The position numbers and the translations under genes were made by a program. The notes below the pieces were generated by a model, which did no database searches, had not been told where the DNA came from, and saw only the letters and a program-made list of their open reading frames with translations. Below are positions 37,286 to 41,378 of a stretch of DNA of 57,048 nucleotides, piece by piece (within the stretch, counting starts at the first letter, position 1; every line of letters begins with the position of its first letter). Source of the DNA: Anaerolineae bacterium (lineage in GTDB: Bacteria; Chloroflexota; Anaerolineae; Aggregatilineales; Phototrophicaceae); the NCBI GenBank assembly GCA_022843745.1, contig JALHNB010000019.1:1-57048 (forward strand), written 5' to 3'.

Positions 37286-38104
37286 ATGATGAACGCGGAA
37301 AGAGCGCTCAAAAACCCCAAGCTTGTTTTTCAGGCGACAATTACGAAACAGCCGTATCGTCGGCGTTTTTGGTTCTCGGTGCTAATCATCGCCGCGACTC
37401 TGGGTGCATGGTTCGCGCTTGATAGGGTCGGGAAGCAGGGTTTGGTCGATAGCAAACTAACTGACATCGGCTGGTTGGCAGCGGCAGCCATCGTCGCCCT
37501 CATGACCGTGCGAGCTTTTCTCAGCCTCTACCGAATGATTACGCGCAAAAATGAAAGCCTGCGTTTTTTTGATCGCGGTTTTTCGTGGACGCGCGGCGAT
37601 GAGAAATATCAGTACGGTTGGGGGAAAGTCGATGTTTTCCGTGAAGGCGCGAGTGGGATTTATCTGGGGAAGCGGCCTCTACTGCAATGGGGCGCGCACA
37701 CTCTGACGATGACCGATGGGCAAATTTTTAAGGTAACGCCCATTTATGGCGATTTGCGCCGTTTTGCCCGCGTGGTGCGGCCTTATATTGCCGAAGCGAC
37801 AGGTGTACAGATGGCACGTGCGCTGCGAGATGAAAATGGGGTGCAGCTCCATCCAAATCTGACGGTCTGGCCGGGCGGTATCGAAATCGGCAAGCGCGAG
37901 ATTCCCTGGTCAGGCTTGAACGTCCGGCTGGAAAACAATCGATTGGTTATCCAGGCGAAAGATGCTAAAGGTAAATTCAAAACGGTGAAGCGCTACAGTG
38001 TGCGCAAAGTCGCTAATGTCGGCGGCTTTGTGGAACTGGCGACCAGCACGATCCGCAATCACCAGCGCGAGCGCTTTGAGAATAAGAAAGCTAAAGTTTC
38101 CTGA
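37286..38104 (+). CDS. Membrane protein with PH-like C-terminal part
   Basis: 272 residues: two membrane spans near residues 29-46 and 62-83, then a beta-rich soluble part of two similar halves (FFDRGFSWTRGDEKYQYGW and LTVWPGGIEIGKREIPWSGL), which resemble bacterial PH domains. I do not recognise a named family. ATGATG gives two possible starts. It is 12 bases after the response regulator. Confidence 0.6.
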   Translation: MMNAERALKNPKLVFQATITKQPYRRRFWFSVLIIAATLGAWFALDRVGKQGLVDSKLTDIGWLAAAAIVALMTVRAFLSLYRMITRKNESLRFFDRGFSWTRGDEKYQYGWGKVDVFREGASGIYLGKRPLLQWGAHTLTMTDGQIFKVTPIYGDLRRFARVVRPYIAEATGVQMARALRDENGVQLHPNLTVWPGGIEIGKREIPWSGLNVRLENNRLVIQAKDAKGKFKTVKRYSVRKVANVGGFVELATSTIRNHQRERFENKKAKVS

Positions 38105-38110
38105 GTGGCT

Positions 38111-39430
38111 TTAGTTTGATTTTTTAGTGCGCCGTTCCGCGACGGATTTTAAACTCTCCTCAATTTCCACATCCGACCATGCAGTTTTCGGTGTTCCCAC
38201 ACGCTGCGTGATATAAATTCCGCGATGTCCAGATGCCAGATACGCGATAAAACAGCCCACAATCAGGTAGATCGGTGAGCCTCCACTAAATAATTCTATG
38301 CCCATCAGCGCACATGCTAGTGGGGTGTTGCTTGCGCCCGCGAATACCGCCACAAAGCCAATCGAGGCCATGAATGCCGGGTCAACGCCGAGCAACCTGC
38401 CCAAGGTATAGCCAAGCGTCGAGCCGATCACGAACAGTGGAGTCACTTCGCCGCCCAGATACCCCGAACCCAATGTGATCGCCGTGAAGATGAGTTTGAG
38501 CAAAAAAGCCAATGTCATCACGCCTTCACCGCTGACACTCTGGTGGATTAACGGCAGGCTCAAGCCCAGATAATCCTGCGTACCGAGAAGTAGAGTCAGC
38601 GCGATGATCGCCACGCCGCCAACAACAGGTCGCAGCGGCGGATATTTCACAAAACGACTTTGCCAATGTTTGATCGTATGAATGAGTTCAACAAACAGGA
38701 TACTCGTCAGGCCGAAGGCAACACCCGCCAGCGCAACTTTGACCAGCAGCACCGGCTCGATTTCAACGTTAGCCAGCGCTGGATAATGCGAGTGTGTCAC
38801 GCCCCAGGCACGAGTGACGAGATCGCCCACGCAGGCGGACACCAGACAGGGGATAATTCCCTCATAACGGATGCGTCCAACACTTTGCACTTCCATCCCG
38901 AACACAAATCCGGCGACAGGTGTGCCGAAAACGGATGCGAATCCGCCGCTGATTCCTGCCATAATGATGAGCCGTCGATCTTCCGGTTGCAGCCGTAGCA
39001 CACGCCGCAGCGCATCCGCCAAACTCGCGCCCATCTGGATCGCTGTTCCTTCGCGACCCGCCGATCCACCGAAAAGATGCGTGACAACCGTTCCCAGCAG
39101 CACCAGCGGAGCCATGCGCAACGGAATCCGCGATTGATTAGAATGAACTTCCTCGATCACAAGGTTGTTGCCCTGCGAAGCGGTTCCGGCGAAGCGATGA
39201 TAAATCCAGCCGACAACGAATCCGGCCAGCGGCAGCAAAAAGAGAATCGCCGGGTTTGCCAGTCGGAAATGGGTCGCCCAATCCAGGCTGATGAGAAATA
39301 TGGCTGATGCCGTACCCGACAGCACTCCAATAACGCCGCCAATGAGCGACCATTTCGTGAGCATCCACAGGAAAAGTCGAAACTCCTGAAAGTCAACGCG
39401 AAGGGATGGATAGCGGTTGTCCCGAAGCAT
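38111..39430 (-). CDS. CLC-family antiporter, probably fluoride-type (CLC-F)
   Basis: 439 residues, CLC fold. The gating-glutamate motif is GGSAGREGTAIQM, and the third motif is YLGGEVTPLFVIGS. The first motif, GSGIP in chloride-type CLCs, reads GNNLVIEE here. These three features are what separates CLC-F (fluoride/proton antiporters) from chloride CLCs. The gene is 11 bases behind the MFS gene, and that operon begins with a fluoride riboswitch (40732-40780), which independently supports fluoride export. Confidence 0.88.
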   Translation of the reverse strand: MLRDNRYPSLRVDFQEFRLFLWMLTKWSLIGGVIGVLSGTASAIFLISLDWATHFRLANPAILFLLPLAGFVVGWIYHRFAGTASQGNNLVIEEVHSNQSRIPLRMAPLVLLGTVVTHLFGGSAGREGTAIQMGASLADALRRVLRLQPEDRRLIIMAGISGGFASVFGTPVAGFVFGMEVQSVGRIRYEGIIPCLVSACVGDLVTRAWGVTHSHYPALANVEIEPVLLVKVALAGVAFGLTSILFVELIHTIKHWQSRFVKYPPLRPVVGGVAIIALTLLLGTQDYLGLSLPLIHQSVSGEGVMTLAFLLKLIFTAITLGSGYLGGEVTPLFVIGSTLGYTLGRLLGVDPAFMASIGFVAVFAGASNTPLACALMGIELFSGGSPIYLIVGCFIAYLASGHRGIYITQRVGTPKTAWSDVEIEESLKSVAERRTKKSN

Positions 39431-39441
39431 GATTGACCTTT

Positions 39442-40662
39442 TTAAATCCGTTGATTACGCCAGCGTAGCGCCAGCATACCCGATGCAATCAATGAGAGAA
39501 CTGCGCCAGCGATGAACGGTGCGCTAGGGCCAAAGCCTGCCCAACTGCCGACACCCTGCCACAAAATACCTGCTACCAGACTCGCGGGCAGCGCCATCAG
39601 GCCAAGTGTCGCATTATAAAACCCATACGCAGTGCCGCGCTGTTCTTCGGGGATCAAATCTGCGACCAGTGCTTTGGCCGTTCCTTCAACCGCTGCATAG
39701 TAAAACCCGTAGAGCGCATAAATCATCCAGATTTGCCATGCCGTGTGCGCCACCGCAAAGCCCAGATATAACAGGCTATAGACTAACCATCCACCGATAA
39801 TGAGCCGTTTGCGCCCGATGCGGTCTGAAAGTGCGCCTAATGGGCTGGAAAAAATAGCGTAAATCACGTTAAAGGTGATGAGCATCCCCAGCACACCTGC
39901 TACACTCAAGCCGCGTTCCTGTGCCCTCAGTACCAGGAAGCCATCGGAGGAGTTGCCGAGCGTGAAAATAGCCGCAACCAGCAGGAAAAACTTGAAATCG
40001 CTGTTTAGCGCGGCAAAATTGAGTCGGACGCTTGCTGCCCGTGCCTTGAACGGGACTTCCTTCGCGCCAATTGTCAGGACAACTACGGCCAGGAATGCGG
40101 GAATGATGCCGATCAAAACAAGCTTTTGAAACGTTTCACGGCTGAGGTCGAGCGCTTGGGATTGTGTCGCAAGCACCACAAGCAGCGCGATAAGCAGCCC
40201 GATAACCGCGCCAGCCGTATCCCCCGCGCGATGTAAGCCGAAGGCTATACCGCGATGACGCTCGTCGATACTCCCGGCGATCAGGGCATCGCGAGGTGAT
40301 GTGCGGATGCCTTTCCCGGCACGATCCGCAAAGCGCACCGCTAGCACCCCTGTCCAGCTTGTGACAAAGTATAGGAAGGGTTTTGAGAATGACGACAGCG
40401 CGTAGCCGGACACGGTAAGCCACTTGCGCCCGCGCACTTTATCCGACAGCCAACCGGAAAATGCTTTTAACAGGCTGGATGTGGTTTCGGCTATCCCCTC
40501 GATTAATCCAATCACGGCGGTGGATACACCCAAAACATTCGCCAGATACAGTGGGATGAGATTCGTAATCATCTCGCTGGATATGTCGGTCAGAAAGCTG
40601 GTCAATGTCGTCACCCAAACATTGCGGGGCAGGGATTTCAGCCCGCCTGGGAGTAGAGTCAT
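39442..40662 (-). CDS. MFS transporter in the fluoride-riboswitch operon
   Basis: 406 residues and 12 spans, with signatures ADRAGKGIRTSPRDALI and SPLGALSDRIGRKRLIIG. The start is set at the ATG at 40662, with AGGAG 10 bases upstream. An in-frame ATG at 40701 would start inside the riboswitch terminator. It is followed by the CLC-F gene after 11 bases. The family (related to bacterial YfkF-type and other uncharacterised MFS) is not a known fluoride exporter; its link to fluoride is inferred from operon and riboswitch. Confidence 0.85.
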   Translation of the reverse strand: MTLLPGGLKSLPRNVWVTTLTSFLTDISSEMITNLIPLYLANVLGVSTAVIGLIEGIAETTSSLLKAFSGWLSDKVRGRKWLTVSGYALSSFSKPFLYFVTSWTGVLAVRFADRAGKGIRTSPRDALIAGSIDERHRGIAFGLHRAGDTAGAVIGLLIALLVVLATQSQALDLSRETFQKLVLIGIIPAFLAVVVLTIGAKEVPFKARAASVRLNFAALNSDFKFFLLVAAIFTLGNSSDGFLVLRAQERGLSVAGVLGMLITFNVIYAIFSSPLGALSDRIGRKRLIIGGWLVYSLLYLGFAVAHTAWQIWMIYALYGFYYAAVEGTAKALVADLIPEEQRGTAYGFYNATLGLMALPASLVAGILWQGVGSWAGFGPSAPFIAGAVLSLIASGMLALRWRNQRI

Positions 40663-40700
40663 GTTTTTACATCTCCTAAAAATGTTCATGCTCATGTTCA

Positions 40701-40743
40701 AAAGAAAAAGCCTCTACCCAACACAAATCACAGGGTAGAAGCT
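40701..40743 (-). terminator. Riboswitch-controlled intrinsic terminator
   Basis: On the minus strand AGCTTCTACCC (40743-40733) pairs with GGGTAGAGGCT (40719-40709) as an 11-bp stem with one G-U, followed by TTTTCTTT. The 5' arm overlaps the aptamer's pseudoknot strand (GCTTC), so the aptamer and terminator exclude each other, as in fluoride ON switches. Confidence 0.85.
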
Positions 40744-40780
40744 ATCAACCGTCATGGGTATAACGCGAGCCTCATCGCGG
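40732..40780 (-). ncRNA. Fluoride riboswitch (crcB motif) aptamer
   Basis: On the minus strand the sequence reads CGCGATGAGGCTCGCG, a 4-bp P1 stem CGCG/CGCG with the conserved ATGAGGCT loop, then about 15 bases with a short ACC/GGT stem, then TTGATAGCTTCTACCC. The conserved GATGA..G, TGAT.GC and TCTACC elements match known fluoride aptamers (for example Thermotoga). The GAGGCT loop can pair with AGCTTC as the pseudoknot (one G-U). It lies between the promoter and the MFS start; the operon carries a CLC-F gene. Decisive check: a covariance-model search against the fluoride riboswitch family. Confidence 0.9.
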
Positions 40781-40801
40781 GACGTTTTTACATCCAAAAA
40801 T

Positions 40802-40830
40802 AGTTTATTGCTATTTTGTGCATCTGGCAA
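40802..40830 (-). promoter_or_regulatory. Promoter for the fluoride operon
   Basis: On the minus strand TTGCCA (40830-40825), 17 bp, then TAAACT (40807-40802), with the start about 40795. The -35 lies inside the palindrome at 40825-40840. Confidence 0.65.
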
Positions 40831-40840
40831 GCGCTTGCCA
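40825..40840. promoter_or_regulatory. LacI-type palindromic operator TGGCAAGCGCTTGCCA
   Basis: A perfect 16-base palindrome with the central CG of LacI/GalR-family operators. Its halves overlap the minus-strand -35 and a possible plus-strand TTGCCA. No LacI-family gene is in the window. Confidence 0.65.
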
Positions 40841-40899
40841 AATCAGCTAGAGGTGCTTGCTATAGGGCAGCAGTTTCGATATGCTGGTGAAAAGATCAT

Positions 40900-40960
40900 G
40901 TGAGGTGAGCTATGAAACGCGAACCTGTCCCGTGTGGTGAATTATGAAACATGAACCTGT
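40900..40960. repeat. 32-bp tandem duplication over the start of the next gene
   Basis: GTGAGGTGAGCTATGAAAC (40900 on) and GTGTGGTGAATTATGAAAC (40932 on), each followed by GAACCTGT after two different bases: 29 bases, 5 mismatches, period 32. It creates a short upstream reading frame at 40912-40947 whose stop overlaps the true ATG at 40944. Confidence 0.8.
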
Positions 40961-41378
40961 TCTCAGCCGTCATCGCCTCCCACGCATCTATCGTGTAAGT
41001 CTAGCGGCTTTGTGGCTGACTCCGATTGTGATTTTTGTGCTTGTTTCGATTTTTCAGTGGGGATTCTCATTAACGCTGCTTGATCCGCGATTCGTTTTGC
41101 CGCTGGCTTTGATGGCTGTTCCGGCAATTTATGTGTGGCATGAAGGCGTGGATGTCCTGCCGAGTGGAATTATTCGGCGCATCCATTTGCCGCGCTATTA
41201 CGCATATGATTCTCTGGAAACGTGGTATTTTGACCGCCGCGCTGACCGTCATATTTTAACGATATGGGATGCGCAGAATTGCAAAATTTTTGAGTGCCGC
41301 GCGGGGCATCTGACCGATTTGCCCGATCTGCTCGATGCGCTGAAGACGCATGTGCGCTATCGACACTGGCCGAATTAA
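40944..41378 (+). CDS. Small membrane protein, PH-like
   Basis: 144 residues: two spans (about 18-40 and 47-65) and a beta-rich soluble part (VDVLPSGIIRRIHLPRYYAY). It resembles the C-terminal-PH membrane protein at 37286, both being of unknown function. The start carries the 32-bp duplicated segment described above, with an 11-codon upstream frame; GGTGA precedes it. The gene runs divergently from the fluoride operon across a shared palindrome. Confidence 0.65.
   Translation: MKHEPVLSRHRLPRIYRVSLAALWLTPIVIFVLVSIFQWGFSLTLLDPRFVLPLALMAVPAIYVWHEGVDVLPSGIIRRIHLPRYYAYDSLETWYFDRRADRHILTIWDAQNCKIFECRAGHLTDLPDLLDALKTHVRYRHWPN

Follow-up and report, generated by a model that had tools for sequence, protein, structure and literature searches.

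A fluoride riboswitch ahead of an MFS gene and a CLC-F gene in an Anaerolineae contig, and the recurrence of this MFS clade in fluoride-riboswitch operons

The DNA analyzed here, referred to as the window, is the 57,048-nucleotide stretch of an Anaerolineae bacterium on contig JALHNB010000019.1 (assembly GCA_022843745.1). Its minus strand carries a fluoride riboswitch and an overlapping terminator, together spanning 40701-40786, followed by a gene for a transporter of the major facilitator superfamily (MFS) and a gene for a CLC-F type fluoride/proton antiporter. The MFS protein belongs to subfamily A of a clade that recurs behind fluoride riboswitches in other genomes of the same class. The switch and the exporter are of known kinds, and we call the recurrent transporter clade the new part. 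With moderate confidence, we regard the region as a fluoride-inducible unit (promoter, riboswitch/terminator, MFS, clcF), in which the MFS protein most likely serves as an auxiliary proton-coupled transporter and not as the primary fluoride exporter.

Riboswitch, terminator, and gene pair in the window

The features of the region are as follows.

40841-40813, minus strand: alternative promoter match overlapping the next one (9/12 matches)
40802..40830, minus strand: candidate sigma-70-type promoter, TTGCCA-17-TAAACT (consensus scan, 9/12 matches)
40738..40780, minus strand: fluoride riboswitch aptamer core (RF01734, 22.3 bits; model R1, 69.9 bits; pairs kept in 28 relatives)
40779-40776/40767-40764, minus strand: aptamer helix P2, part of the core
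40773-40769 (loop strand) pairing with 40742-40738, minus strand: aptamer pseudoknot
40759-40757/40750-40748, minus strand: short aptamer helix P3 (read by eye)
40701..40743, minus strand: intrinsic terminator (5' arm 40743-40733, 3' arm 40719-40709; 11-bp stem and T run)
40673..40677, minus strand: Shine-Dalgarno-like AGGAG before the MFS start (by sequence)
39442..40662, minus strand: MFS transporter gene (406 aa from the ATG at 40662; Pfam MFS_1, E=6.1e-37)
38111..39430, minus strand: CLC-F type fluoride/proton antiporter gene (439 aa; by likeness to structure 6d0j, signatures, and Pfam Voltage_CLC)

Read along the minus strand, the leader sequence is CGCGATGAGGCTCGCG..ACC..GGT-TGATAGCTTCTACCC..GGGTAGAGGC-TTTTT. 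In a 351-nt search, the Rfam model RF01734 aligned to 40729-40788(-) over all 64 model positions (E=4.4e-4), and P2, the conserved loop, and the pseudoknot to the 3' strand were all found. Two observations speak against the assignment: the 22.3 bits are below the RF01734 gathering score of 34 bits, which is a curator's cut-off and no structural feature, and the fluoride riboswitch was missing from both whole-window Rfam scans. The covariance-model check proposed in an earlier note on this DNA thus gave a full-length match that came close to being no hit. Because of the sub-gathering score, riboswitches of the same class were collected, and a covariance model (R1) was built from 28 of them with their terminators, leaving the window out of the training. 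These 28 elements stand before crcB, CLC-F, mutS-like, enolase, and other genes. In the window, R1 found 40701-40786(-) with 69.9 bits (E=1.9e-17); its other matches were one of 15.7 bits on the reverse strand of the terminator arm and, beyond that, none better than E=0.27.

The terminator excludes the aptamer through shared nucleotides, as 40742-40738 serve both as the 3' strand of the pseudoknot and as part of the 5' arm of the terminator. Taken alone, 40696-40748 folds into the terminator (-18.1 kcal/mol, z=-4.77 against shuffled sequences). Among the 28 relatives, the P2 and pseudoknot cells were 100% paired and the terminator cells 98%, with compensatory changes; the pairs of P2 and of the pseudoknot, which none of the 28 has lost, can also form in the window. 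Alignment column 63 covaries with column 16, to which it pairs in the pseudoknot, as well as with column 100, to which it pairs in the terminator; such double covariation marks two folds that exclude each other. The aptamer at 40732-40780 and the mutually exclusive terminator at 40701-40743, both claimed in the earlier note, were therefore confirmed. The leader would bind fluoride, and the terminator would be the fold formed when fluoride is absent.

The low Rfam score is not confined to the window. For six other loci of the class (L314-L317, L319, and L325; L and G numbers denote our loci and genomes), no Rfam fluoride match at the gathering score was reported; R1 gave 50.7-61.2 bits for elements standing before crcB or MFS genes. 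This shows that the riboswitch subtype is scored low by Rfam in general and that the gathering cut-off misses fluoride riboswitches of the class. A second RF01734 match in the window's own genome (G000:C26:44032-44100, 29.3 bits) was rejected by eye, having neither a GAUG loop nor a terminator; it lies over an open frame that we take to resemble a radical-SAM protein.

Five promoter-like sites were found in 38000-41100 against 1.9 expected, and the promoter that the earlier note placed before the riboswitch, represented by the two weak 9/12 matches, is thus suggestive only. The order of MFS and then CLC was as described there, with the CLC ATG 11 nt behind the MFS stop, and we expect the two genes to be co-transcribed. 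The fluoride-type motifs ascribed to the CLC protein were also recovered. CLC-F signatures are given as GNNLI/GMGLI, GREGT/V, and GEVTP (PMC11139923), and all three regions are present in the window CLC (GNNLV at 87, GREGT at 125, and GEVTP at 327), the first ending in V where the listed form has I. Its closest solved structure is the CLC-type fluoride/proton antiporter 6d0j (E=7.8e-63), with other CLC structures far behind (3nd0, E=8.3e-11; 1kpl, E=3.3e-9). Judged by the three signature regions and the nearest solved relative, the window CLC is a CLC-F. It is the single CLC match in its own genome at E<=1e-30, and no CrcB match was found in that genome. Elsewhere in the class, the CLC-F frames of G008, G156, G318, G343, and G351 (L070, L237, L249, L205) are about 750-810 residues long, compared with 439 for the window CLC, and represent CLC-F with a long C-terminal extension.

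The MFS clade near fluoride riboswitches

Riboswitch sites in genomes of the class were collected without regard to MFS genes. From 96 distinct Rfam places, we left out G026:C1179, G206:C338, the second G066 site, G008:C9, and 11 places judged false by eye, which gave 81 sites; the window, L178, and G046 were added by hand to give 84. MFS genes within 5 kb were scored using 28 MFS proteins of the window's own genome and 28 clade members as queries. As 15 of the 81 sites had 1.5-kb flanks only, the near-riboswitch counts are lower limits.

All 11 MFS genes lying downstream on the same strand, borne by 10 of the 81 sites, were in the window's clade; with the three added sites, the count was 14 of 14 at 13 sites. 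No MFS of another family was detected in this position at the 81 sites with the 28 own-genome queries. Upstream on the same strand were three clade MFS genes (G049, G293, and G400), and for two of these upstream cases, R1 placed a riboswitch of their own immediately ahead of the gene (L235 6679-6783 and L208 1390-1490). On the opposite strand, one clade MFS lay downstream, within a convergent riboswitch operon (G257), and six MFS genes of other families lay upstream. The fraction 11/11 compared with 1/29 for the MFS genes of the window's own genome gave a Fisher p of 5e-9, which is rough, as the sites and the genomes share ancestry. A further 14 of 28 same-strand downstream rows for the clade (54-217 bits) were excluded as not MFS, since they matched the zinc-ribbon/HEAT part fused to L195.

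In a tree, 16 riboswitch-linked MFS proteins and 12 relatives grouped apart from 28 other MFS proteins of the window's own genome with a Shimodaira-Hasegawa-like approximate likelihood ratio (SH-aLRT) of 99; the method was a quick one without bootstrap, and the branches among the other MFS were long. Only 28 other proteins were taken in because 30 of the 47 MFS places in that genome were available as loci. Protein searches at E<=1e-40 and E<=1e-50 returned no further clade member in the window's genome. The clade comprises four subfamilies: A, which holds the window MFS; A', sharing about 45% identity with A; B (about 30%); and C. A riboswitch stands directly before the MFS gene in the window and in L178, L067, L243, L208, L195, L222, L235, L252, L319, L326, L339, L341, and L344, while the order in G318 is riboswitch, CLC, MFS. 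The riboswitch-linked cases carry 13 family labels (f1, f4, f11, f18, f23, f32, f34, f38, f42, f50, f52, f55, and f58). By these placements, the clade has been put into fluoride-riboswitch operons many times across the class and is not peculiar to the window genome.

Subclade C was further followed by protein search alone (E<=1e-50), which found 58 places in 53 of 396 genomes. Of the 50 genes examined, 24 had a riboswitch of the class no more than 7 kb upstream on the same strand, the weakest being L323 with the MFS 5.5 kb from the riboswitch; with the ten genes from riboswitch loci removed, 14 of 40 were linked. The linked genes include eight with the riboswitch directly before the MFS (L222, L235, L252, L319, L326, L339, L341, and L344) and five newly found in the order riboswitch, CrcB, DUF190, MFS (L314-L317 and L325). 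L315 and L316 were rejected as direct cases, as their stop-to-stop frames overran, and are counted as operon members only. In L313, L330, and L331, the order CrcB, DUF190, MFS was present with the riboswitch undetected. For scale, PMC11139923 gives the riboswitch-controlled share as about 15% for Flucs and 30% for CLC-Fs.

Several loci had unusual arrangements. L235, L341, and L344 each carry two same-strand fluoride riboswitches flanking the MFS gene, one before and one after. At L195:3300-5102(-) (G075), the first open reading frame after the riboswitch, of 601 residues, is a zinc-ribbon/HEAT part fused to a clade B MFS; elsewhere in the class, operons have zinc-ribbon/HEAT as a gene of its own. 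In family f8, L063:7193-7279(-) and L003:2716-2802(-) are short leader hairpins with a T run before an MFS gene; R1 gave just 11.7 bits (E=0.78), and they may represent a riboswitch in decay or an attenuator of another kind.

Role of the MFS transporter

In the proposed unit, the terminator would form when fluoride is absent, and transcription would end before the MFS gene. Once fluoride (with Mg2+) is present, the pseudoknot of the aptamer would occupy 40742-40738 and block the terminator, so that the MFS and CLC-F proteins would be made together. CLC-F would export fluoride by F-/H+ antiport, and the MFS would relieve a consequence of fluoride entry, either the cytoplasmic acid load or an anion accumulating behind fluoride-inhibited enzymes. 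Support for such an auxiliary role was seen in co-occurrence of the clade with CrcB and CLC-F, enolase (L339) and pyrophosphatase (L194) among the same-strand neighbors, a precedent in Clostridioides difficile, and acidic residues in the helices of the protein.

The window MFS has an MFS_1 domain, and its AlphaFold2 model (AF2; predicted local distance difference test, pLDDT, 91.9) has a plain MFS fold. It reached no NCBIfam subfamily cut-off, the best match being TIGR00880 with 65.9 of 131 bits (among the matches listed, 25 of 34), and 3wdo and NorA were weak sequence matches. D26, E30, D125, and D148 lie in its helices and are kept in 25-28 of the 28 clade members; such acidic residues suit proton coupling, which would thus be a plausible property of the protein.

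Other observations weigh against the proposed reading. In subfamily A, sampled as the best 80 loci (58-73% identity to the window MFS; 84 frames included repeats at L063 and L113, hence the use of loci), 30 of which had full flanks, two were riboswitch-linked (L178 and L192) and three had a CLC-F nearby (L113, L114, and L130), so the general job of subfamily A need not be fluoride. Riboswitch, CrcB, and CLC-F were all unseen in 75 of the 80 in the available sequence. Genomes G043, G049, G054, and G059 of the same order have the riboswitch before CLC, with the MFS two genes off and the gene between them on the opposite strand. About half of subclade C had no riboswitch upstream, including the more distantly related copies of the G070 genus (L345-L349). 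In that genus, G105, G159, and G196 have a similar riboswitch operon lacking the MFS, which is therefore dispensable there.

In L178, from a metagenome-assembled genome (MAG) of Caldilineales, the ortholog of the window MFS is the first gene (riboswitch of 58.1 bits, MFS, zinc-ribbon/HEAT, DUF6062), and in L192, it is the last of a same-strand row (riboswitch of 83.5 bits, MutS_V, MutS_V, CrcB, DUF190, MFS). In L130, the MFS precedes CLC-F, its stop overlapping an in-frame ATG of the CLC frame, and in L113 and L114, CLC-F lies about 2 kb from the MFS behind its own riboswitch. A weak zinc-ribbon/HEAT match directly ahead of the MFS in L135 (72 bits) and L147 (61 bits) was not counted as fluoride linkage. 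The neighborhood of MFS and CLC-F or crcB, for which the earlier note had suggested a search, recurs in L130, L192, G318, and members of subclade C and was unseen in most of the best subfamily A loci in the available sequence.

A less likely explanation is that the MFS itself exports fluoride, or a fluoro-anion, HF, or a metal-fluoride complex, forming a third family beside Fluc/CrcB and CLC-F. It would fit the MFS gene opening the riboswitch operon in several lineages, and its being the only transporter among the recognized riboswitch-operon genes of G070 (one contig, 98% complete), G136, and G240; no CrcB and no CLC match at E<=1e-10 was found in these genomes or in that of L178. To weigh this, CrcB (by PF02537) and CLC-F (E<=1e-30) were counted in 75 riboswitch genomes, giving CrcB in 30, CLC-F in 9, and neither in 36. 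The last number is an upper limit, because MAGs are incomplete and a CrcB-like frame at the G184 riboswitch, detected by our own CrcB profile, was unreported by PF02537; incomplete MAGs or missed matches may account for the 36, as may an exporter of unknown type. Clade MFS genes were in riboswitch operons of 13 of the 30 CrcB genomes (G321, G118, G257, G385, G236, G245, G293, G185, G347, G146, G339, G365, and G046), 1 of the 9 CLC-F genomes (G318), and 7 of the 36 with neither (G070, G136, G240, G075, G252, G400, and L178's genome, with G082 as a weak eighth). These are lower limits, because the MFS was sought only near riboswitch sites and among the subclade C matches. The window genome is a further case of CLC-F with MFS outside the 75.

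The notion that the MFS replaces missing exporters thus failed the co-occurrence test, as there was no enrichment where neither exporter was found, and the MFS is not a simple stand-in. The known exporters are usually mutually exclusive, CrcB and CLC-F occurring together in about 3% of strains (PMC11139923), whereas clade MFS genes stand in riboswitch operons of genomes with either one. G105, G159, and G196 have no CrcB, CLC-F, or operon MFS, and each carries a more distant, unlinked clade C copy. We think that an auxiliary transporter is more likely than a third exporter. The fuller version, in which the clade is a riboswitch-induced third family for fluoride or a fluoride complex that replaces CrcB/CLC-F in some genomes (G070 and L178's genome) and backs them up in others, is also unlikely. 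Of the earlier note's proposal for the MFS, membership in the fluoride response stood through the clade recurrence, and a new fluoride transporter is so far unsupported by the co-occurrence.

A passenger status of the MFS is rather improbable; it would then be a general exporter captured by chance into the riboswitch-CLC unit, with no role in fluoride resistance. The 78 of 80 best subfamily A loci without a same-strand upstream riboswitch would suit this reading, as would the order relatives, in which the MFS is near the riboswitch-CLC unit yet outside it; however, a single MFS clade, and no other MFS family detected, stands repeatedly behind fluoride riboswitches across the 13 family labels, with operon partners that vary among CrcB, DUF190, DUF6062, CLC, and enolase. 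That the leader is an ordinary attenuator resembling a fluoride riboswitch, as its sub-gathering Rfam score might suggest, is very improbable given its R1 score and the pairs shared with all 28 relatives.

DUF6062 (PF19538; e.g., L178:7633-8391), zinc-ribbon/HEAT, and MutS_V rank with the most frequent genes other than exporters in the fluoride operons of the class; DUF6062 was not found by name in the literature searched. Genes of the Na+/H+ exchanger family (PF00999) stand first or second behind the riboswitch in L236 (G342), L214 (G106), and L198 (G138), and these three genomes gave neither CrcB nor CLC-F.

Comparison with known systems

A clade that is repeatedly the first or only recognized transporter behind a fluoride riboswitch is a testable lead, pointing either to a third exporter or to transport functions in fluoride tolerance other than export. 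Bacterial fluoride exporters of two kinds have been named, and the riboswitch-associated genes named are those for exporters, Na+/H+ antiporters, pyrophosphatase, haloacid-dehalogenase-type proteins, enolase, and formate hydrogen lyase (PMC11139923); neither "MFS" nor "major facilitator" appears in that text. A link between MFS and the fluoride riboswitch was found neither in the titles and abstracts searched, which did not cover the gene lists of the founding 2012 papers, where an MFS could stand, nor in passages of PMC11477304, PMC12595759, PMC12452182, and PMC6281302.

The leader shares with the crcB motif (RF01734) P2, the GAUGR loop, the pseudoknot, the UGAU..CUAC segment, and a terminator overlapping the 3' pseudoknot strand; it differs as a class subtype with a GAUGAGGC/GCYUC core that falls below the gathering score in the window and several sister loci. 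The window CLC-F resembles the CLC-F (EriC-F) antiporters, such as 6d0j, in GNNL, GREGT, and GEVTP and in near full-length similarity, and differs in being the second gene, behind an MFS. The MFS protein has the fold of LmrP, NorA, YajR, and OxlT (Foldseek TM-scores 0.67-0.84), at 15-19% identity and in a distinct clade.

The fluoride-riboswitch operon of Enterobacter cloacae FRM (ppaC-uspA-eno-gpmA-crcB-orf5249; PMC5533749) is similar in that a single riboswitch governs an exporter and accessory genes, but its six genes lack an MFS, whereas operons of the class add MFS, DUF6062, zinc-ribbon/HEAT, and MutS_V. In C. difficile, a fluoride riboswitch precedes a CLC and an NhaP-type cation/H+ antiporter gene (PMC11477304). 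That operon likewise joins the riboswitch, a CLC-F type exporter, and a second transporter of proton-coupled type and is thus a precedent for an exporter with an auxiliary proton-coupled transporter, although its second transporter belongs to the cation/H+ antiporter family and not to the MFS.

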